The notes beneath the pieces are model-generated. The model worked only from the letters and a program-made list of their open reading frames with translations. It searched no databases and was not told where the DNA came from. The translations under genes and the position numbers were made by a program. Below, in pieces: positions 348 through 38,062 of a stretch of 38,062 bases of DNA (position 1 is the stretch's first letter; every line of letters starts with the position of its first letter). The DNA is from Spirochaetota bacterium. GTDB taxonomy: Bacteria; Spirochaetota; Spirochaetia; SZUA-6; Fen-1364. The stretch spans positions 1-38,062 of the forward strand of contig JAPLSM010000361.1 in the NCBI GenBank assembly GCA_026398635.1, read 5' to 3'.

Positions 348-1158
348 CTCGGGGGCTCCTTTCGTTCCCTGTGTCCCTTCCGAATGTCAGGGCCGTGATG
401 TCCGCCTCGCGCTCGAGGCGCACCACGACCGATTCCTCCGCTGCCGTCAGCATGCCCGGCACCCCGCCCTCCGGCGAGCGGCCCGTGACGGCGTACGCGC
501 CCGCTGCGGGCAGCACCTGGGCCACCTCCGCACGGAGGAGCCGCAGCACGCCGGGTCCTTCGCGGACCGCGCCCACGCCCGCGAGGTCGACCTCGTGAGG
601 CGCATCGAGCATCGCCGCCGCCTCGTCCAGCCTTCCCTCCCGCACCGACCGGCGGATGCGGGAGCTGCTGACGATCGCCCCGCCGAAGCGGACCGGCTCG
701 ATCGTCTGCACGCTCGTCTGACTCGCCGCGAGCATCGCCTCGAGGTCGTGAACATCCGCGTCTCTGTTCATGCCGAAGCGGAAATTGGGGCCGACGACGA
801 TTCTCTCGATGGCGAGACGTCCCCGCAACAGATCGATGAAATCCCGGCCCGACAGTGTACGTATTTCCTCGGAAAAGTCAATCAGCACGGCAGCCCCGAC
901 GCCCAGCGCGGCGAGCCGGCGCAGTTTCTGCGGCAGGCTCAGGATGAGGCCGGGGACGTCGGCGCGTCCGAGGACATGACCGGGCAGCTGGCGGAACGTG
1001 ACGACTACGGCGAGCGGCTTTCCGGGGCCACGGATGTCCGTATCCGTTATGGCTGCCATCAGACGGCGGTGGCCCAGATGCAGCCCGTCGAAGACACCGA
1101 TCGTTAAATGGGCAGGGCGTTCGCGCAGGGCCGGACCCGCGGCCGTCCGCCCGGCCAG
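331..1158 (-). CDS. ribF: FAD synthetase (RibF-type nucleotidyltransferase), without a recognisable riboflavin kinase domain; non-standard start
   Basis: The frame contains the HxGH nucleotidyltransferase signature in [12 protein letters not shown], encoded near 1070-1105, then the [12 protein letters not shown] segment typical of the FMN adenylyltransferase domain. The bifunctional family normally continues into a kinase domain with a GFPTAN-like motif; I see none in the last ~100 residues. I therefore call it an FAD synthase-type protein. The first ATG in frame (1059) falls after the HxGH motif and cannot be the real start. Between an in-frame TAG upstream and the motif there is no ATG, GTG or TTG. 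A CTG at 1158, six bases after a GGGAG sequence, gives 275 residues and is my best guess. A sequence error or frameshift is the alternative. It lies 23 bp after truB. Confidence 0.75.
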
Positions 1159-1181
1159 GAACTACTCCCACGTGGCGACGA

Positions 1182-2063
1182 TCACGAGGGACCGCCCGCG
1201 AACACCGCCCGGAACCTCCACCGGCCGTCCGCGCGCTCCACGAGAGCCACCAGCTCCGCGCCGGCCCGGAACGCGCCATAGAGGCCATCTGACGGTACCG
1301 GGTCGGGAAACCATGCATCCGAAGGGGGAGTGCCGGTCGCGAGCGAGGCGGCCCGGACCGTCTCGACCTCGAGGATCCCCAGGGGCGGGCATCGCTCGAA
1401 CAGGACACGGGGGTCGCGGAGGTCGCGCGAGGGCTGGAAGGCATCCGGGGACACTGCTTCCTCCACCCTGAATCCTCCGACCCGGGTGCGGCGCAGGGTG
1501 GCGACGTGCGCGCAGGTGCCGAGACGTGCGGCGATGTCCCGGGCGAGCGATCGCACGTAGGTGCCGCGCGAGCAGGTGACAGCGAGCACGGCGTCCGGGG
1601 CTTCCCACGATACCAGTTCGAGCCGTGTAATGCGGACCGTCCGCTCCGCCGGCTCGACCGGCCGGCCGCGCCGAGCCAGCTCGTAGGCGCGCCGGCCCCC
1701 GACGTGGACGGCCGAGTAGGCGGGCGGCGCCTGCCGGATCTCCCCGAGAAAGGCCGGCAATGCGGCCGCGAGTGCCGCGCGGCCGGGTACCGGACCCTCG
1801 GCGACCACTGCTCCCTCGGGATCGAGCGTATCGGTGCCGGTGGCGAAGCGGACCCGGGCGAGGTAGTCCTTCTCGAGAGCCTCGGCGAGGGAGCTGAGCC
1901 GGGTGCAGCGGCCGCACATCACAACGAGCAGGCCGCTCGCGAACCGGTCGAGCGTGCCCGTGTGGCCTACCCTGCCCGTCCCGAGTGCCCGCTTGACGGA
2001 CGACAGGGCCTGGAAGGAGGTGAGCCCGGACGGCTTGTCCAAGAGCAGGATGCCGTCCGTCAA
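1182..2063 (-). CDS. truB: tRNA pseudouridine(55) synthase
   Basis: The product (293 aa from the chosen start) begins with GILLLDKPSGLTSFQALS and has the catalytic block GRVGHTGTLDRFASGLL, with the catalytic Asp at about residue 39. TruB converts U55 of the tRNA T-loop to pseudouridine. The start is a TTG whose last two bases are the first two of the rbfA stop codon (TTGA), which places GILLLDKPSG where the family usually starts; the longer upstream frame lies inside rbfA and has no TruB features. A C-terminal extension of ~60 residues resembles a PUA-like end. It belongs to the rimP-to-pnp operon. Confidence 0.95.
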   Translation of the reverse strand: MTDGILLLDKPSGLTSFQALSSVKRALGTGRVGHTGTLDRFASGLLVVMCGRCTRLSSLAEALEKDYLARVRFATGTDTLDPEGAVVAEGPVPGRAALAAALPAFLGEIRQAPPAYSAVHVGGRRAYELARRGRPVEPAERTVRITRLELVSWEAPDAVLAVTCSRGTYVRSLARDIAARLGTCAHVATLRRTRVGGFRVEEAVSPDAFQPSRDLRDPRVLFERCPPLGILEVETVRAASLATGTPPSDAWFPDPVPSDGLYGAFRAGAELVALVERADGRWRFRAVFAGGPS

Positions 2064-2407
2064 AGTCCTGCGTCCCTCAGCTTCTGGGCGATGCGGAAGC
2101 CCCGTTCCATGGAATCGTCGAGCACGAACCGCAGGTGCGGGAAGGTGCGCAGTGGAATCCGCCGGGCGAGCACGCTCTGGATGTAGCCGGCGGCGTGGTT
2201 CAGGGCTTCGACGCTGGCGGCGAGCTGTTCGCGCTCGCCGAAGCGGGACACCCACACCTTCGCGTGGGCGAGGTCCTTCGTCACCGACACCGCGGTGACG
2301 GTGGTGAGGCTCTCCACCCGGGGGTCCTTGATCTCCCCCCGCTGGATCATCGCGGCGAGCTCCTGCTGAAGCAGGCTCTCGATGCGTTTAAGCCGAAGCT
2401 CCGCCAT
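2060..2407 (-). CDS. rbfA: 30S ribosome-binding factor A
   Basis: The 115-residue protein has the single KH-like fold pattern of RbfA: an N-terminal helix with [17 protein letters not shown], then DPRVESLTTVTAVSVTKDLAHAKVWVS and an ARRIPLRTFPHLRFVLDDSM segment. RbfA helps late maturation of the 30S subunit and 16S rRNA 5'-end processing. Its ATG at 2407 lies 20 bp inside infB, and its stop overlaps the TTG start of truB. The infB-rbfA-truB order is conserved in many bacteria. Confidence 0.95.
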   Translation of the reverse strand: MAELRLKRIESLLQQELAAMIQRGEIKDPRVESLTTVTAVSVTKDLAHAKVWVSRFGEREQLAASVEALNHAAGYIQSVLARRIPLRTFPHLRFVLDDSMERGFRIAQKLRDAGL

Positions 2408-4991
2408 CGCGGGCGGCCTCGATCTTCCGGGCGAGCTCGCGCGTCTCGTAGGCTTCGATGAGGTCGCCGACCTCGATGTCGTTGAAGTTCTCGAGGCCGA
2501 TGCCGCACTCGAACCCCTGCTCGACCTCCCGCGCGTCGTCCTTGAACCGCTTCAGCGAGGCGATCCGGCCCTTGAACACCTCGACGCCCTCGCGGATGAG
2601 GCGCACGTCCGAGCTGCGCCTGATTTTCCCCTGCGTAACGTGGCAGCCCGCGATCGTGCCCACCCGGGAGATCTTGAAGACGTTGCGCACCTCCACGGTG
2701 CCGACCTGCTCCTCCTTCAGCTCGGGCTTCAGCATGCCCTCCATGGCGGAGCGGATGTCCTCGACCGCGTCGTAGATGATGTTATACTTGCGGATCTCCA
2801 CCTTCTCGCGGTCCGCGACGACCTGCGCGGGCGAGCTCGGCCGCACGTGGAACCCGATGATGAGGGCGTTCGAGGTCGAGGCGAGCAGCACGTCGCTCTC
2901 GTTGATGGCGCCGGCCCCGGCGTGGATCACCGACAGACGGATCTCGGGCGTGGACAGGCGCTCGAGGGCGGTCTTGAGGGCCTCGACGCTGCCGTGCACG
3001 TCGGCCTTGATGACCACCTTCAGGTCCTGGATCTCGCCTTCCTTGATCTGCTCGTAGAGGTTTGCGAGGGTGACCTTCTTCACCTCCCTCGTCTCCTCCA
3101 TCCGTCGCAGCTCCTGGCGCTTCGTGCCGATCACCTTGGCGGTACGCTCGGTGTCCGTCGCCTGGAAGGGGTCGCCCGCGTTGGGGATGCTGTCGAAGCC
3201 GATCACCTCGACGGGCATCGCGGGCGGGGCCTCCGCGATCTTCGTGCCCTTGTCGTCGTAGAGGGCCCTGACCTTGCCCGGCCAGATGCCGGCCACGAAC
3301 GAGTCGCCGACCTTCAGCGTTCCCTTCTGGATCACCACGGTGCCCACGATGCCCCGGCCCATGTCCACCCGCGACTCCAGCACGATGCCGGACGCCCGGG
3401 TGTGGGGGTTGGCCTTGAGGTCGAGCATCTCCGACTGCAGCAGGATGCTGTCGAGCAGCTCGTTGATCCCGGTCTTCTTCAAGGCCGAGACCGGGTTGTA
3501 GAGCGTGGTGCCGCCCCATTCCTCGGGCGACAGGCCGTGCTCGCTGAGCTGCTTCTTCACGAGCTCGAGGTTCGTGTCGGGCAGGTCCATCTTGTTAACC
3601 GCCACGATGATCGGGACTTTCGCGTCCTTCGCGTGGTTGATGGCCTCGATCGTCTGCGGCATGACGCCATCGACCGCGCTCACCACGAGCACCACGATGT
3701 CCGTCACCTGCGCACCCCGGGCCCGCATCTTGGTGAAAGCCTCGTGGCCGGGGGTGTCGATGAAGACGATTCGCCCCCGACTGGTTTCGACGCTGTAGGC
3801 GCCGATGTGCTGGGTGATGCCGCCGTACTCGCCGTCAGCGACGTTGGTCGACCGGATGGCGTCCAGCAGCTTCGTCTTGCCGTGGTCGACATGTCCCATC
3901 ACGGTGACGATCGGGGAGCGGCGCGCGATGTCCTCGTCGCGGCCCACCTCCTCCTCGATCACCGTCTCGTCGTAGAGGGAGACCACGTGGATCCGGCAGT
4001 CGTACTCCGCGGCCAGCAGCTGTGCCGTGTCCGAATCGATCTGCTGGTTCAGCGTCACCATCGTGCCCAGGGACATGAGCTTGTGGATGAGGTCCGAACC
4101 CTTCAGGTTCATCTTCTTGGCGAGGTCGGACACGGTGATGGCCCCGGTGATGGAAATCTCCTTCGGCACCGGGTTGGCCATGATGATGGTCTTCTTCTTG
4201 ACGCTGAGGCTTTTCTCCTCCGGCTCCGCGTGCTTGCGCTTCAGCCAGTCGGGCCTCTTCTTGCCCTTGGTGAAGAATTTCTTCCCGCCGGCGGCGGGCT
4301 TCTTGTCCTCGCCGGGCTTTGCCGGTGCCTGGCCGGGACGCGGCGGCCCTCCGGGCCGTCCACCGAACGGCGGCCGGCCGGCGTAGCCGCCGCCGGACGG
4401 GCGTCCGCCGTATCCGCCGCCTCCCGGCCCGATGCCGGAACTGCGTGCGGGCGGCACGTAGCCGATGCGGGCCTTTTCGCGTACCGACGGCGGCGGCTCG
4501 GGCGGCCGCTCGCGGAACGTGGTGCGCTCGATTTCCGGGGGACGGGAGACCGGTGGTCGTTCCCGGAAGGTGGTGCGTTCGACCTCGCTCGCACGGCCGA
4601 CGGGCGCGTGGGCGCGGGGTTGCGCAGCCGCAGCAGCCTGTCCGGCGCGGGCTCCTGCTGCGGGCGCCCTGGCTGCGGTGGGAGCCTCACGGGCGGGAAT
4701 CTTCGCGGCCGGAGTATGCGCGGCGGTTGCGGGCTTCCGGATGGAGGGGGGGATCTCCGGGCCGCGGGCTGGCGTCGACGGTTCCGCCGGGTGTGCCCCT
4801 GCAGCGGTTGTGGCCTCCTCGGCCGTCGGGCGGGCCGGAGTCGCCTTTTTCACCACCACCCGGCGCTTGACCACGACCTTCTTCAACTGCGGGGGCTGCT
4901 CCGCCGCTGCGACGGGCTGTGGCAGCTCCTCCTTCTTGTGCTTGATGAGGGCGGTCTTGGGCTTCTTCTTCCCTTCCAGTTCCTCGGGCAT
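2388..4991 (-). CDS. infB: Translation initiation factor IF-2
   Basis: The 867-residue GTPase delivers initiator tRNA to the 30S subunit. Residues 1-~270 form a low-complexity region: a Lys-rich start, an Ala/Pro-rich stretch, two copies of an [10 protein letters not shown] motif (~138-164) and a Gly/Arg-rich patch (~188-220). An IF2N domain follows (~278-340). The G domain starts near 358 with G1 GHVDHGKT (366-373), then DTPGH and NKMD. Domains II-IV follow with the expected [18 protein letters not shown] segment. An internal ATG at codon 271 (about 4181), just before IF2N, could give a short isoform; this is inference. The gene sits 13 bp after nusA. Confidence 0.97.
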
Positions 4992-5004
4992 ACCCCTCTC
5001 TCTC

Positions 5005-6591
5005 TTATTCCTGCTCCGCGCTTTCGTCGAAGCTTAGTCCCACGCCGCAGCTTGGGCAAGTGGCCATGTCGGGCGTGACGGCTGCGCCGCACTCCGGGCA
5101 CTCGTAGGTCTCTTCCTCGACGACGTCCTCTGCTGCCTCGGCGGGCGCTTCGACGGTCGCCCCGGCGGTCGTGGGGGCGGTGGCTTCCGGGGCGGTCGCC
5201 GCGGGTTCGGCGGCGCCGGCCGGTACCTCGGGCGGCTCCCCCGCGGCAGCCGGCTCGGGAGAGCCCGTCTCGGCGGGTGCCGCGGCGGGCTCCTCCTCGA
5301 CGATCTCGACGTTCTCCTCGATGATCTTCTGCAGCGCGACCACGTCGTCAGCGGTGATGCCTTCCAGGGCGGCGAGCTGCTCGGGGGCGAGCGAGACCAG
5401 GTCCTCGATCTCGTTGATGCCGTCGCGTGCGAGGATCTCGACGAGCCGCGCCGGGATGCCGGGCAGCTCCGAGATCTTCTCGATCTGGGCCACCGGCTCG
5501 CCGAAGAGGGCGGAGACGGCGCGCCGCGCGTCGGCGGAAATGTCCATGTCCGCGAACTGGGTCTCGGTCTTGACGTCGATGTTCCAGTCGGTGAGCCGGT
5601 TGGCCAGGCGGACGTTGAGGCCGCCCTTGCCGATGGCCAGCGAGAAGGCCGCGTCGGGCACGACGGCCACGGCGTTCTTGCGCGGCTCGTCGACGATGAC
5701 GACCTGGCTCACCTCGGCCGGCGACAGTGCGTTCTTGATGAAGGTGCGCGGGTCGAGCGAGTAGCGCAGCACGTCGATCTTCTCGCCCTCCAGCTCGCGA
5801 ACCACCGCCTGGATGCGAACGCCCTTGAGGCCCACGCAGGCGCCAACCGGGTCAACGTCCTCGCGGTTCGAGCGCACCGCAAGCTTGGTTCGGTAGCCGG
5901 GCTCGCGAACGATCTTCCAGATCTCGATGGTCTTGTCGTAGAGTTCGGGCACCTCGAGCTCGAAGATCTTCTTCACGAACTCGGAGTGGTTGCGCGAGAG
6001 GATGATCTGCAGGCCGGTGGGCGTCTTGGCCACCTCGTAGATCATGGCCTTGATCCGGTCGTTCGGGTGGTAGTCCTCGCGCGGGCTCTGGAACTTCTTC
6101 GGCAGGATTCCCTCGGTCTTGCCGAGGTCGACATAGATGTTGCCGTTCCGCTCGCGCTGGTAGTACCCGATGATCATCTCGCCGACCTTGTCCTTGTACT
6201 CGGAGTACAGGGTGTCCTTCTGGATCTCGCGCAGGCTCTGGCGCGCCTTCTGCTTGGCGCTCTGCACCGAGACCCGGTCGAACTCCTTCGGGTTCATCTC
6301 GATGAGCAGCTCGTCGCCGACTTCCGCCTCCTCGTTGAGCTCCTTGGCCTCGGGAAGGGGGATCTCGTAGACGGGGTCGTCGAGGTCGTCTTCGAGGACG
6401 ATCTTCTTGCGCGCGAACAGGGTGACCTCGGTGCCGTCGTCGTTGAAGCGCACCTCGGCGTTGTCGCACACGCCGAACTTGCGCTTGTACGCGGCGAGGA
6501 GGAAGTTCTCGATGGTGCTCATGACCAGGTCCTCGGGAATCCCCCGTTCCTGGACGAGCTGCTTGATGGCCTGCGACAGTTCAGACTGCAT
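5005..6591 (-). CDS. nusA: Transcription termination/antitermination protein NusA with C-terminal zinc ribbon
   Basis: The 528-residue protein has the NusA N-terminal domain (1-~125), an S1 domain (~135-200), two KH domains (~205-345, with GACVGLKGVRIQ and AFSLAIGKGGLNVRLA), and a helix-hairpin-helix segment (~375-425). A ~65-residue Ala/Pro/Glu linker (~432-495) then leads to a zinc-ribbon-like end with Cys pairs at 498/501 and 512/515 (CPEC and CPSC). NusA binds RNA polymerase and modulates pausing and termination. The zinc ribbon is not part of textbook NusA. It is in frame with no stop or shift before it. The gene sits 17 bp after rimP. Confidence 0.96.
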   Translation of the reverse strand: MQSELSQAIKQLVQERGIPEDLVMSTIENFLLAAYKRKFGVCDNAEVRFNDDGTEVTLFARKKIVLEDDLDDPVYEIPLPEAKELNEEAEVGDELLIEMNPKEFDRVSVQSAKQKARQSLREIQKDTLYSEYKDKVGEMIIGYYQRERNGNIYVDLGKTEGILPKKFQSPREDYHPNDRIKAMIYEVAKTPTGLQIILSRNHSEFVKKIFELEVPELYDKTIEIWKIVREPGYRTKLAVRSNREDVDPVGACVGLKGVRIQAVVRELEGEKIDVLRYSLDPRTFIKNALSPAEVSQVVIVDEPRKNAVAVVPDAAFSLAIGKGGLNVRLANRLTDWNIDVKTETQFADMDISADARRAVSALFGEPVAQIEKISELPGIPARLVEILARDGINEIEDLVSLAPEQLAALEGITADDVVALQKIIEENVEIVEEEPAAAPAETGSPEPAAAGEPPEVPAGAAEPAATAPEATAPTTAGATVEAPAEAAEDVVEEETYECPECGAAVTPDMATCPSCGVGLSFDESAEQE

Positions 6592-32830: not shown

Positions 32831-34188
32831 GTAACTATTCAGGACCTTGCTTGTAAAACTACCGGACACCTGTATAGTACCGGAACTTTTCGAGATGTGC
32901 GATGCTTCTCTCAATGGGAGAGGAGAAAAGACAATCGTTTCGGCGCATCAGCCGAGAACAGATGCAGAGCATCTATCGCGCTGGTCCCGAGGCCATCTTT
33001 TCTCTAATCGATTATCTGCAGGACATCATCGAATCAAACGCGCATCGCATTGAGGCACTCGAACAACAGCGCCATACTGACAGCCATAACAGCAGTAAGC
33101 CTCCTTCCAGCGACGGGATTGGGCGTACAATCGTGCAAACCAGGAAAGCAACGGGAAAGAAACCAGGCGGGCAGAACGGTCACAAAGGTTCGACGCTGCC
33201 ATTTGCCGAACATCCCGATCAGGTAGTCGTGCATGCTCCGAAGCGCTGTGGCAAATGCGGCGGGTCCTTGGAGGCAGAGGCCTCCATCGGCTACGAACGG
33301 CGTCAGGAGGTGGAGCTTCCCCCTGTGAAGGCACAGGTGACCGAGCATCAGGCGCAGATCAAGGCGTGTCGCAACTGCGGGACACAGACTCGAGGGGAGT
33401 TTCCTGTCGGATTGAACAGTCCGATGCAGTACGGCACTCGGATTCGTGCCAGCTTGATCTACTTAAAGGACTATGCGCTGCTGCCATTCCAACGCAGCGT
33501 AGAACTAATGCACGACTTGTTCGGGGTGCCCATATGTGCGGGGACCTTGGCGAACATCGAACAGCAGTGTAGCGCCAAGCTCGAGGCGACGGTGGAATTG
33601 ATCAAGGAGAGCGTCCGTCACGCCGAGGTGGTGCACTTCGATGAGACGGGCATAAAGATCAACGGAAAGTTGTTCTGGCTTCACAGCGCCAGTACGGCAC
33701 GGGCAAGCTACTATTTTCCCCATGCCAAACGGGGCACTGCGGCCATGGACGCCATGGGGATCTTGCCCGGGTTTGAAGGGGTGGCAATTCATGACTTCTG
33801 GTTCAGCTACCTGGGTTACAGCTGCGCCCATGCGTTGTGTAATGCCCACCTTTTGCGGGAGCTGACCTTTGTCTGGGAAGAATGCCACCAGAAATGGGCG
33901 CAGGGACTGATCGATGCTCTGCTGAAATGGAAGAAGGCTGTGCAGCAGGCACATCAGATGGGAAGAACAGCGTTGGGAAGATGGCAGATACTCCAGATTG
34001 AGAAAGAGTATCGAAGGATCATTCTCCGAGGCCTGCTAGCAAATCCGCCCCCTCAGGAGACAGGAGCGCCAAAGCGTGGGCGCAAGAAGAAGAGCAAACC
34101 ACGCAATCTCGTGGAGAGGCTGAGGGATTACTCCCAGGAGGTGCTGCGCTTTGTGCATGACTTTGGGGTTGAATTTGATAACAATGCA
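32831..34188 (+). mobile_element. Truncated IS66-family insertion sequence (left part)
   Basis: The element carries the single-gene type of IS66 transposase. I place the left end at 32831 because GTAACTATTC there resembles IS66-type ends (GTAA...) and lies ~70 bp before the gene. The right end was lost when the RIT element joined at 34189, so no matching terminal repeat or target duplication can confirm the boundary. Confidence 0.5.
32851..32878 (+). promoter_or_regulatory. Promoter of the IS66 transposase (TTGTAA-N16-TATAGT)
   Basis: TTGTAA (32851-32856), a 16-bp spacer and TATAGT (32873-32878) lie just inside the proposed IS end, 23 bp before the transposase ATG. Confidence 0.5.
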
Positions 34189-34269
34189 GCATTATGCTCA
34201 GGATTTCATAATCCTCAGGATTTGCGGATGCCAGCCGCCCGGCGCGTGGATCGAAGGTCTGCCGCCTGA
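32902..34269 (+). pseudogene. tnpC: IS66-family transposase, cut before the catalytic Glu and fused to a 26-residue tail from the RIT repeat
   Basis: The 455-residue frame shows a coiled N-terminus with NSSKPPSSDG (63-72), a zinc-binding CxxC pair (C116/C119 and C156/C159), and the DDE domain with Asp at D247 (HFDETG) and D298 (AIHDFW). In IS66 proteins the next motif is (D/T)NNxAER, whose Glu is the third catalytic residue. Here the protein reads DNNAA (426-430) and then switches to LCSGFHNPQDLRM..., encoded by the inverted repeat, and stops at 34267-34269. The catalytic Glu and the C-terminal ~60-70 residues are missing, so it should be inactive. Start 32902 is the first ATG; 32914 is equally possible. 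Confidence 0.9.
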
Positions 34270-34283
34270 ATCCTGAGGATTAT
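34189..34283 (+). repeat. Left 95-bp terminal inverted repeat of the RIT element
   Basis: It matches the reverse complement of 37546-37640 at 94 of 95 positions (the difference is T/C in GAAGGT[C/T]TGCC-like sequence near 34260). It contains three copies of an AGGATT-type site: TCAGGATT (34198-34205), the dyad AATCCT-C-AGGATT (34210-34222) and the dyad AATCCT-G-AGGATT (34269-34281). The dyads are about 59 bp apart. They are good candidates for recombinase binding sites. Confidence 0.95.
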
Positions 34284-34337
34284 GTTTGGCTTTTTGCAAG
34301 CTTGTTGATACTTGGAGTACCCGAAGGAGGGGTTCCC

Positions 34338-35555
34338 ATGTATCAGCAATACGACCAGGCGGTCCAGACAGTCCTTGAATATCTTCAACAGAAGGGCTTT
34401 TCAAGATCTCCGCTCAAGCAGTTCCAGAAAGCAAGTTGGGAGTTCAGGAATTATCTTGAATGCCGACAAGTTGAATACTCACCAGATCTCGCCAAGGCAT
34501 GGCTTGGAGCCGCTAAACAGGTATTCCCCACGTGGAAATTCCTGGGCTTCCGCCGCGCTATGGCGCTTGTCGAAGAAGTTGTGAGAACAGGCGCAGTCAC
34601 CACCTTGGCATTCCCCTACGACCGCAGACCAAAGCTTCAAGTGCCAGCATGCTATGAATCGCTGCTGGACTCCTATCTGCAGGAAAGGAAGCGGGATGGA
34701 AACCAACCATCCACCTTGTGCATGGATGCGCATGCGTGCATCCGGTTCCTGGTGTTCCTGGAATCCCAGGGGATCACCAGCTTGGATGGCCTCAGCCCGC
34801 AAGCCATAAAGGATTACCACGCCCAGGCCAAGCACGAGACTGCTGAAGGAAAGAACGCCTATACCTGCAGGATCCGCGGCTTTGTCCGGTTTCTCGCAAG
34901 GAAGCGCCTGGTTCCGGAAACCCTCGAGTTTGCCTTCGCCTCCGACAAGGCGGAGCGTGTTCGAATTGTCACTTCGCTATCCACGGACCAGGTTGAGACA
35001 GTCAGGAACTATTGCCGTGCGAGTTCATCGCCTACTGAGCTGCGAAACGCCGCGATCGCGCTCTTGGTTCTTCGCATGGGATTCAGGTCCATCGACGTGT
35101 GCAACCTGCGCTTTTCCGACATTTTCTGGAAGGACAGGACGATTTCAATCGTCCAGCAGAAGACCAGGACTCCATTGACGCTGCCGTTTCCCATTGAGGT
35201 AGGGAACATGCTTGCCCGGTACATCAGCGAGGGACGTCCTGAATGCACGTTGCCAACGGTCTTCGTCTCCCTGTATCACCCCTACAGGAAAATGCAGTCT
35301 TCGCGATGCTATCGCGCCTCCGTGGCGATCTTGGGCGAGAAGGCATCGCTGGAGGACATCAGGGGAATGCACCTTCTCAGGAGGACTTTTGCCTCACGGC
35401 TTCTGGCGGCGGGCAACGCGGTCCCGATAATATCCGTAGCATTGGGACATGCTCAGGAAGGGTCGGTTGACGAGTACCTGGCAACGGACGAGCAGCGAAT
35501 GCGCCGATGCTCCATCGGACTTGCCGGCATCGAGATCCAGAAGGTCTTCGCATGA
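34338..35555 (+). CDS. ritA: Tyrosine recombinase RitA
   Basis: The 405-residue protein has a SAM-like DNA-binding N-terminal part (~105-200) and a catalytic domain (~215-390) with the expected residues: R250 (MGFRSIDVCNL), K275 (QQKTRTP), H345 and R348 (HLLRRTFASRLL), H371 (LGHAQ) and nucleophile Y380 (VDEYLATD). About 100 residues at the N-terminus lie before the usual recombinase fold, which makes it the longest of the three. ATG 34338 follows a strong GAAGGAGG site (34323-34330). The stop overlaps ritB as ATGA. RIT recombinases are thought to act together; the job of each is unknown. Confidence 0.93.
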   Translation: MYQQYDQAVQTVLEYLQQKGFSRSPLKQFQKASWEFRNYLECRQVEYSPDLAKAWLGAAKQVFPTWKFLGFRRAMALVEEVVRTGAVTTLAFPYDRRPKLQVPACYESLLDSYLQERKRDGNQPSTLCMDAHACIRFLVFLESQGITSLDGLSPQAIKDYHAQAKHETAEGKNAYTCRIRGFVRFLARKRLVPETLEFAFASDKAERVRIVTSLSTDQVETVRNYCRASSSPTELRNAAIALLVLRMGFRSIDVCNLRFSDIFWKDRTISIVQQKTRTPLTLPFPIEVGNMLARYISEGRPECTLPTVFVSLYHPYRKMQSSRCYRASVAILGEKASLEDIRGMHLLRRTFASRLLAAGNAVPIISVALGHAQEGSVDEYLATDEQRMRRCSIGLAGIEIQKVFA

Positions 35556-36517
35556 AGCGCTACAACAGCCAACTCGCACCGTACATCTGTGGACTCGTGA
35601 CCCAGAAGCGGGCCTCTGGGTTCATATACGGCTTTGAATCCTATATCCTCGCCTTTTTTGACAGGTTCTGCATCGAGCATGGCTACAATTCGGGAACGCT
35701 GACCCGAGACATGGTCATGCATTGGGCGATCCAGCGGCCTACCGAAAGCAAGAACTACCGGAACCAACGAGTGTCCTTCGTTCGCCAACTCGCTCTCTAT
35801 ATGCAATCACTCGGGATGAACCCATACATCCCCCTGCGTTTCGAATCGGAGACAAGGGATATTCCGCACATCTTCTCCCGCGATGAATTGGTGGGCTTCT
35901 TCGATGTCGTGGATGATTACACGCCGCCGCAGACCAGCCTCCGAAGGCTGTCCCTGTCATATCGAGTCTTGTTCAGGCTTTTCTATTGCTGCGGGTTTCG
36001 GCTTGCAGAGGCTTGTTACCTGCGACGTCGATGCGTCGACCTGGAAAAGGGAACCTTCAGGATTCTCCAGTCCAAGGGCGACAAGGACAGGCTTGTGTAC
36101 CTCTCCGATGACGTCCGCGCAATGTGCCGCGACTATGACGCATGGATGCAGGCGATAATCCCCGACCGGGAGTGGTTCTTCCCCGGACGCCGTCCCGGCA
36201 AGCCATTTCAAAAGACATCCATCGACAAGAAGTTCGGCGAGTTCTGGAACCAGACTAGTTTCTCGGGCAAGGTCGATAAAAAACCAACGATCCATGGCCT
36301 TCGGCATACCTTCGTGGTGGACAAGATGAACGAGTGGATGCTTGCGGGAATTGACACCGACGCGATGATGCCCTACCTGAGCCGCTATCTTGGCCATTCA
36401 TCAATCCAGGAAACACAGTACTATTTCCACACCATAGAACAGGCTTTTCCCGTCATCCGCCAGCACGATGCTATGACCAGGAGCGTGATTCCCGAGGTGA
36501 TGGCGTATGAAGAATAA
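35552..36517 (+). CDS. ritB: Tyrosine recombinase RitB
   Basis: The 321-residue protein has a full catalytic set: R150 (CCGFRLAEACYL), Lys in SKGDKDR (175/178), H248 and R251 (HGLRHTF), H282 (LGHSS) and Tyr 290 or 291 (IQETQYYFHT). The N-terminal core-binding part covers ~10-100. I start it at ATG 35552, which overlaps the ritA stop (ATGA); the longer frame lies inside ritA. The last 11 bp overlap ritC, so all three are probably made from one mRNA by coupled translation. Confidence 0.93.
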   Translation: MKRYNSQLAPYICGLVTQKRASGFIYGFESYILAFFDRFCIEHGYNSGTLTRDMVMHWAIQRPTESKNYRNQRVSFVRQLALYMQSLGMNPYIPLRFESETRDIPHIFSRDELVGFFDVVDDYTPPQTSLRRLSLSYRVLFRLFYCCGFRLAEACYLRRRCVDLEKGTFRILQSKGDKDRLVYLSDDVRAMCRDYDAWMQAIIPDREWFFPGRRPGKPFQKTSIDKKFGEFWNQTSFSGKVDKKPTIHGLRHTFVVDKMNEWMLAGIDTDAMMPYLSRYLGHSSIQETQYYFHTIEQAFPVIRQHDAMTRSVIPEVMAYEE

Positions 36518-37538
36518 CCATCGCGGCGGTCCACTTTTCTTTTCGATGACCTTCGAGTTTCTGGAAACCTACCTGCCGATGCAGTGCGGGAGAAGCCCCC
36601 ATACCGTGGAATCCTATCGGGACGCCCTGTCCCTGTTCCGGCGATACCTTCTTGCGGAACTTGGAATCTCCGTGGCCAAGTTCACGTTCGGAGAATGTAC
36701 CAGGGACTGTGTTCTTGGATTCATTGCATATCTCGCAAAATCGGACAGCAAGCCTGGTACGCGCAACCAGCGTCTCGCCGCACTGAAATCCTACGTCGCG
36801 TTCGCCGCAGACAAGGATGTCACGGTGCAATCCATGGCGCTTCAGGTCAAAAGGGTCCCTCAGTGCAAAGTCCCAAAGGCAGAAAAGGCTGTCATTCCCG
36901 AAGACGCCATGGCCGAGTTGCTCAGGCAACCCGCAAACACTAAAATGGGGCTCAGGGATCGGACTATCATGATCCTGCTTTATGACAGCGGCGCCCGGTT
37001 GGCGGAGATCCTTGGATTGCGCATCACCGACGCGATGATCTCAGGAGACAACCCATATATCCGCGTCAACGGCAAGGGTAGCAAGCAAAGGGTCATTCCC
37101 ATCTCGCTCAAAACCGCAGGGCATCTTGCCCAGTACATCTCGGTCTTCCACGGGCATGGATGTCCAGAGACTTCGCTGTTGTTCCTCACGATCATTAAGG
37201 GAGTCGCAGGCCAAATGTCCGAAGGCAATGTCGAGCGATTCCTGAAGGCCTATGCAGACAAGGCCAGATTGTCCTGCCCTTCAGTGCCCGGGAAGGTGCA
37301 TCCCCACATGTTTCGAAGAACAAGGGCAACGGAACTCTACCAAAAGGGAGTGAGCCTTCCCCTGGTCTCACGCCTTCTTGGTCACGCAAATCTGGATACA
37401 ACGAAAATTTATGCAAGACCGAGCCTCAAGATGCTTCGCGATGCCATCGAATCCGTGGAGACTCCAGTTGATCGGGCCGAGAGACCTCTGTGGAAAGGCA
37501 ACGAGGAGATGATGGTGAAGCTGACCGGCTTGAGATGA
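36507..37538 (+). CDS. ritC: Tyrosine recombinase RitC
   Basis: The 343-residue protein looks the most XerC/D-like of the three: N-terminal SAM-like domain (~15-105, FLETYLPMQCGRSPHTVESYRDALSLF), then R164 (YDSGARLAEILGL), K190/K193 (NGKGSKQR), H267 and R270 (HMFRRTRATEL), H293 (LGHAN) and Y302 (TTKIYARPS). It starts inside ritB (11-bp overlap) and ends 7 bp before the right inverted repeat, so the element has no spare coding space. Confidence 0.94.
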   Translation: MKNNHRGGPLFFSMTFEFLETYLPMQCGRSPHTVESYRDALSLFRRYLLAELGISVAKFTFGECTRDCVLGFIAYLAKSDSKPGTRNQRLAALKSYVAFAADKDVTVQSMALQVKRVPQCKVPKAEKAVIPEDAMAELLRQPANTKMGLRDRTIMILLYDSGARLAEILGLRITDAMISGDNPYIRVNGKGSKQRVIPISLKTAGHLAQYISVFHGHGCPETSLLFLTIIKGVAGQMSEGNVERFLKAYADKARLSCPSVPGKVHPHMFRRTRATELYQKGVSLPLVSRLLGHANLDTTKIYARPSLKMLRDAIESVETPVDRAERPLWKGNEEMMVKLTGLR

Positions 37539-37545
37539 CCGGAAT

Positions 37546-37640
37546 ATAATCCTCAGGATTCAGGCGGCGGACCTTCGATCCACGCGCCGGGCGGCTGGCA
37601 TCCGCAAATCCTGAGGATTATGAAATCCTGAGCATAATGC
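37546..37640 (-). repeat. Right 95-bp terminal inverted repeat of the RIT element
   Basis: It is the reverse complement of 34189-34283 with one mismatch and carries the same three AGGATT-type sites (dyads at 37548-37560 and 37607-37619, the single site at 37624-37631). Read on the minus strand, it encodes the same tail (LCSGFHNPQDLRM...RRSAA, stop) in the same frame as the left repeat does for its transposase. Confidence 0.95.
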
Positions 37641-37967
37641 GGAATTGTTTGTCGGCTCTACCCCTTCGTGAAAAATGAAGGTAAACAGGTGCGCTCGGAG
37701 CTTGTACAGCCGACGCGCAAGAGAACGGACTGAACGATCGGGCGAATCGCAATAGTGATGCAAACACTTCTCCATACCGAGTCGGATGGGTTTTGATAGA
37801 TAGATCAGTCGTTTTCGTTTGATCTCTCCCGTCTTGTACCGATACCACAACTTCATGAATTCCTTGCGCCGGTACTCCATTCGGCGGGCAAATGCGCATG
37901 CCTGCTGCGATGAGAGGGATAAATGATAGCAACTACTATAGCTTGCCGTTGGGTCGGATGGGCACAA
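37560..37967 (-). pseudogene. Fragment of a second, different IS66-like transposase fused to the RIT repeat
   Basis: On the minus strand the frame carries ~85 residues resembling the middle of the other IS66-like transposase type: FMKLWYRYKTGEI, then SLARRLYKLRAHLFTFIF, then HEGVEPTNNSA, where the family continues AERALR. After NNSA the frame passes into the RIT repeat and stops at 37562-37560. The recognisable part starts near 37905; upstream (37906-37967) the match fades, and the first catalytic Asp region is missing. It shares almost nothing with the left transposase except the NNxA motif, so the two flanks are not halves of one gene. Confidence 0.75.
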
Positions 37968-38062
37968 GGGAGGCCCGGCATGGCCAAGAAGGCGGGCTCC
38001 GCCGAACGGATAGGGGTGCCCGGAAACGGATTGTGGTGGAAACCGTAGGGCCAGAGAGAGAT
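37968..38062. other. Window end, nothing assigned
   Basis: These 95 bp have short open stretches on both strands but no recognisable protein, repeat or RNA. GC is higher again than in the RIT element. It may belong to the second IS66-like element or to what follows outside the window. Confidence 0.3.

Follow-up and report, generated by a model that had tools for sequence, protein, structure and literature searches.

The stretch of DNA analysed here (the window, 38,062 nucleotides) carries a RIT element of 3446 bp at 34192-37637, in which ritA, ritB and ritC all run in one direction between two long terminal inverted repeats (TIRs) that differ by two mismatches. On each side the element is joined to the 5′ part of an IS66 transposase gene. 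The features are collected in Table 1.

Table 1. Features of the RIT locus and its two flanks, with positions in the window.
Feature	Position	Strand	Remarks
IS66 transposase gene, left, 5′ part	32902..34191	+	ends ...FDNNAA at RIT; NF033517 E 3e-76, profile 1-333/387; PF03050 E 8.5e-38
7 bp at left RIT end (TGCAGCA)	34185..34191	+	target-derived overlap, inferred from 7-bp arms at other RIT ends
Left TIR	34192..34286		95 bp, 93/95 identical to right repeat
ritA, tyrosine recombinase, 405 aa	34338..35555	+	PF00589 E 3.5e-21; R248 region, HLLRRT, LGH..Y
ritB, tyrosine recombinase, 321 aa	35552..36517	+	PF00589 E 5.3e-21; motifs; 4-bp overlap with ritA
ritC, tyrosine recombinase, 343 aa	36507..37538	+	PF00589 E 3.9e-30; motifs; 11-bp overlap with ritB
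Right TIR	37543..37637		95 bp
7 bp at right RIT end (TTCCGCA, minus strand)	37638..37644	-	target-derived overlap, inferred as for left
Second, different IS66 transposase gene, 5′ part	37638..38060	-	ends ...EPTNNSA at RIT; NF033517 E 2e-4, profile 254-333

The hallmarks of the RIT class are all present: an adjacent trio of tyrosine recombinase genes on the same strand, in A-B-C order and overlapping by 4 and 11 bp, a size of about 3.5 kb, terminal inverted repeats, and the occurrence of the same rit trio in further genomes. Overlaps between rit genes elsewhere measure 4-8 bp (PMC3414803). A motif scan of the sequence found the catalytic R, HxxR, H and Y retained in each of RitA, RitB and RitC. 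The ritA1B1C1 and ritA2B2C2 elements of Cupriavidus metallidurans CH34 and the RIT of A. ferrooxidans are built alike, with three overlapping tyrosine recombinase genes in about 3.5 kb and an inverted repeat plus a palindrome at the ends (PMC2864759, PMC3414803). A fourth conserved gene of the GInt or SE type is absent, the window's repeats enclosing the three rit genes only. We class the element as a RIT and treat the target rule described below as a new property of a known kind of element. Insertions in different genes suggest that RITs are mobile.

At the left junction (34191/34192) the sequence reads GAT AAC AAT GCA GCA followed by TTATGCTCAGG, and at the right junction (37638/37637, minus strand) ACA AAC AAT TCC GCA followed by TTATGCTCAGG. 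The left ORF scores 257 bits against NF033517 (transpos_IS66), above the curated cut-off of 180. The start of the right gene lies beyond the contig end at 38062, 423 bp from the junction, leaving a 141-aa fragment; it reaches 20.7 bits with NF033517, a weak match because no more than 141 residues are left, has no match in a Pfam search, and was assigned by its profile position and the NNxA motif. On the IS66 model, which has 387 positions, both genes end at 333. Intact IS66 relatives read FDNNQGERDVRM, FSNNSAERDLRM, FSNNIGEKSFRL and FTNNQGERDLRM at this place, so that the next residue, lost in both window genes, is a conserved Glu, which we take to be the catalytic Glu of the IS66 transposase. 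An earlier note on this DNA had claimed that both genes are cut directly before that residue and that they belong to different IS66 subtypes. The position of the cuts is borne out, and the genes do differ, with 11 of 30 amino acids identical ahead of the junction. In a search of 118 relatives for close copies of either IS66 gene, none was nearer than 51%.

The common AACAATnnnGCA falls outside the TIR, since the latter begins at TTATGC. The same note had named a longer conserved RIT end as another possible source of the two NNxA junctions. This was ruled out by the flanks, whose left-right identity beyond the repeat falls from 67% over 15 nt to 57% over 30, 48% over 60 and 42% over 120.

To test the note's prediction of IS66 ends in related RITs, 84,980 prokaryote genomes were scanned with a four-sequence RitB alignment, and 80 loci were retained, about half of them RIT trios; further loci (all with L numbers below) were drawn from relatives, plasmids and phage records. 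A quick RitB tree places the window with L025, L026 and L038, and next with L027, L028 and L029 (98 SH-aLRT, inner clade); L030 lies near. The IS66 profile stops at the RIT at position 333 on both sides of the window, at 333 in L027 and at 332 in L028 (the L028 end is also at PF03050 position 259, as in the window); it starts at the RIT at 333 in L025 and L038 and at 334 on both sides of L030. In other words, among the ends of the window's RitB clade and of L030, all eight whose flank is long enough for a profile match, from six elements, lie in IS66 at 332-334. A ninth end comes from L211, a RIT that is carried by a Paraburkholderia plasmid and is distant from the window's; IS66 starts there at 334. 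This brings the total to nine IS66 ends of seven elements, which fall at profile positions 332-334 of 387 and belong to different IS66 subtypes. The flank of L026 is 23 bp long and reads IENKLA up to the RIT end, which is compatible with an IS66 junction and is not decisive. L029 has no flank, its RIT end being the contig end, and contigs that stop at the RIT end likewise make L031, L035, L045, L050, L055 and L060 uninformative. The ends of L225-L227 (44% RitB) were not readable. Plasmids held no DNA-level relatives of the window RIT, and virus contigs searched with RitA, RitC, RitB and the TIR pattern held no close ones.

The prediction of IS66 ends preceded these data, which makes it the firmest part of the analysis. 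The idea that the IS66 active-site codons serve as an attachment site was supported by the eight ends; L016 (placed by ritA only, 59%), which lies within an IS630 gene, is an exception. The target rule is strong, not absolute, and we regard the IS66 codon as very probably the target in the window's clade. One could argue instead that RITs land broadly, that insertions in other mobile elements alone survive, and that the common codon is the visible remainder. Six loci (L036, L033, L034, L044, L047, L058) are outside genes or have no known catalytic motif at the junction, as this would predict, but survival explains neither the single codon boundary in nine IS66 ends nor L246, where two IstB genes both end at 102 of 232. 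We consider it very improbable.

The ends also differ in what lies between the RIT and its target. Near the window, 5′ halves of target genes meet the RIT repeat directly after 7 bp, and 3′ halves are separated from it by an 18-bp palindrome (S, NATCCTAAnnTTAGGATN) with 7 bp on either side. This RIT-7-S-7-3′ order is present at the 3′-type ends of L025, L038 and L030 (both ends), and nearby in L032 (both ends), L039 and L241; the 3′ half begins with GAA or GAG in L025, L038, L030 (both) and L032 (both) and with TAC in L039. The 5′-type ends of the window (both), L027, L028 and L016 have no S. The palindrome scan covered 44 nt outside each end. Its background was 400 draws from flank windows, with 99% at 6.0 and a highest score of 11, and the cut-off of 8 was chosen after the scores were viewed; L032, L039 and L195 fall below it, and their S was assigned by eye from the alignment. 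Farther from the window, S is joined to the 5′ half in L200, L203, L209 and L213, and it was not detected on either side of L189, L034, L044, L186, L188, L196 and L211, none of which is a 5′/5′ locus. Because several such two-flank loci lack S, the bookkeeping is clean near the window only, and elsewhere the sidedness of S is suggestive. In L039 (1979-2317), the RIT end adjoins the start of an IS66 TnpB gene and not a transposase gene.

In the window, the two IS66 5′ halves both face the RIT, on opposite strands. A simple insertion would split one gene, leaving its 5′ half on one side and its 3′ half on the other; the window has two 5′ halves and no palindrome, and is therefore not a simple insertion. 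A second recombination, which the earlier note had not considered, probably brought two IS66 copies together in this layout. We propose that the RIT enters the DNA encoding the IS66 active-site motif by site-specific recombination of the tyrosine type, in a target site whose 5′ arm would lie in the D/T-N-N codons, whose 7-bp overlap would span the last part of Asn together with x and Ala, and whose 3′ arm would start from the Glu codon. The moving form may be circular, made up of the RIT and of S flanked by 7 bp on either side, and would then offer two equivalent attP sites (TIR, 7 bp, S). A first reaction would give 5′-RIT-S-3′ in a single gene, if the order is as we infer; the leftover attP could then recombine with a second IS66 copy to give 5′a-RIT-5′b, as in the window, with 3′a-S-3′b as the partner. 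Insertion would presumably abolish transposase function. We see an even chance for the two-attP route, and the whole explanation, from integration at the IS66 motif to the circle and its two attP sites, appears to us moderately probable. The window genome is a fragmented metagenome-assembled genome (MAG). When a 3′-S-3′ partner was sought in this assembly, three loose-pattern matches came up, none of them an S-type palindrome.

The main rival for the 5′/5′ layout keeps the target rule and replaces the second site-specific step, which it does not need, by homologous recombination between two opposite RIT copies inserted in two IS66 genes, with 5′a-RIT-5′b and 3′a-S-RIT-S-3′b as products. Loci of the latter kind do exist (L030, L032, L197, L198), but none was found in the window's fragmented assembly, which has one RIT copy only. 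In L032, moreover, the 7-bp arms are swapped across the sides (AATGAAT and TGTCGGT inside, ACCGACA and ATTCATT outside) and form one 32-bp direct repeat, which is not expected from two independent insertions. We consider this route unlikely. The L032 repeat (7+18+7; locus at 870-5073) flanks a RIT that sits between the 3′ halves of two different IS3-family transposases.

It is also conceivable that the 5′/5′ junction is an assembly chimera, a wrong flank having been joined through the long inverted repeats, in which case the target rule would stand. The MAG is in 491 contigs with 7.4% contamination, and the right flank soon runs into the contig end. The window's two repeats, however, differ at two sites, and different targets cut at one position on both sides recur in L030, L032, L058, L246 and L189; as L189 is in a single-contig genome, metagenome assembly alone does not account for the layout. 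A chimera is in our view highly unlikely, and the joining of two IS66 copies by recombination remains the preferred account of the window. L189 and L190 (G497:C1) are two near-identical RIT copies in a complete single-contig genome. An IS3-type transposase that is cut after DNG lies between them, on the right of L189 and on the left of L190, as a flank common to both; the GATAAT or GATAAC there is contributed by the RIT end itself. In L246 (G117:C359) the RIT has the 5′ half of an IstB helper ATPase gene on each side; the two genes are different, and both break off at Walker A.

Empty sites were reconstructed at 13 loci of other clades where a single gene is split into a 5′ and a 3′ half. Joins deleting the RIT and S were tried over many offsets and filtered for common bases and a retained open frame; since open frames were selected, an open frame alone is weak evidence. 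In nine of these 13 simple insertions, the join with the longest common stretch (4-8 nt) was clean and in frame and restored a motif of the family: HWGIEN (L042), EKGIVEN (L053), WCWDITW (L247), SGGKDS (L046, L056), SGGIDS (L052), LQGGVISP (L200), FFVDLLFFH (L206) and LLHELTH (L208). For L195, L203, L209 and L213 the search yielded no single clean join.

A wider reading extends to the 46 RITs with a readable flank, 26 of which, by the author's count, are at a catalytic, nucleotide-binding or signature motif. These are the IS66 Glu (window, L025, L027, L028, L030, L038, L211), Glu motifs of other families, namely IS3 (L032, L195), ISNCY (L241), ISAs1 (L042), IS21 (L053), a KGKVE transposase (L049) and IS4 (L188), DDE Asp motifs (L189, L247), the IstB Walker A on both sides (L246), PP-loops (L046, L048, L052, L056), the reverse transcriptase QGG (L200, L203), YhcG (L206), HExxH (L208) and a recombinase Tyr region (L202). 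The other 20 are not at a motif or are unclear (L016, L026, L033, L034, L036, L039, L040, L044, L047, L058, L061, L186, L196-L199, L209, L210, L212, L213). The motifs, whose catalytic roles we assume from what is known of the families, were recognised after the junctions had been seen, with neither a list fixed beforehand nor a null, the ends and flank ORFs were picked by hand or as the longest ORF, and the loci are not independent of one another (RitB is identical in L048 and L056, and others are close kin). With motifs chosen post hoc and ends picked by hand, the wider motif claim is an exploratory hypothesis to which no probability is attached. As a class, RITs may attach where the DNA encodes a catalytic or signature motif, in most cases one that belongs to another mobile element, with a separate motif for each clade, and a circle with two equivalent attP sites could join two targets, inactivate both and rearrange the genome between them; we put this forward tentatively, as somewhat less than an even bet. 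The four PP-loop loci belong to one RIT clade, and their junctions are at SGGxDS codons, in PAPS-reductase-like and Asn-synthase-like genes.

Knowledge of RITs goes back to about 2009, and we are aware of no established target rule for them. In C. metallidurans CH34, one RIT inactivates an IS66 tnpA and others are in radC, as described in 2010 (PMC2864759); a palindrome close to the ends of RITs was described in 2012, as was a RIT located in a Tn6049-type transposase (PMC3414803), and in a table from 2023 the target specificity of RITs is listed as not formally tested (PMC10214605). We found no codon rule for RIT targets in the part of the literature that was accessible. The earlier reports (PMC2864759, PMC3414803) concern single cases, without the codon rule, the 7-bp overlaps, the sidedness of the palindrome and the two-gene junctions presented here. 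GInts and SEs resemble RITs in having several tyrosine recombinases, site-specific integration and a short donor-site sequence that is carried along, 6 bp in SEs (PMC5385486, PMC10214605); they differ in having four conserved genes, including non-recombinase parts, and large cargo, whereas the window RIT has three genes and no cargo. Like RITs, Tn916-type elements and Tn554 use tyrosine recombinases with coupling or overlap sequences of 6-7 bp (for Tn554 also PMC10214605). Their gene content is different, and they have no known link to transposase active-site codons. Many inteins, homing endonucleases and group II introns sit, like RITs, in the most conserved codons of the host gene, but they splice out and spare the product, while a RIT truncates it and uses tyrosine recombinases.

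Our results suggest that the window RIT recognises its targets through the DNA that is most conserved in a different family of mobile elements. A codon-based rule makes RIT ends predictable, and it would explain how RITs could persist at low cost in distant hosts, by landing in other mobile elements at a site that can hardly change. If insertion inactivates the target, RITs would be natural brakes on insertion sequences. With two kinds of half-sites to handle, the need for three recombinases becomes a testable question.

Some of the sampled loci have features of their own. L209 and L213 are RITs within strawberry notch helicase genes on conjugative plasmids, L213 with a second recombinase trio just downstream. 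The trios of L197, L198 and L199 come from unverified phage records of human faecal samples, and in L025 and L034 ritC itself is interrupted by other sequence.
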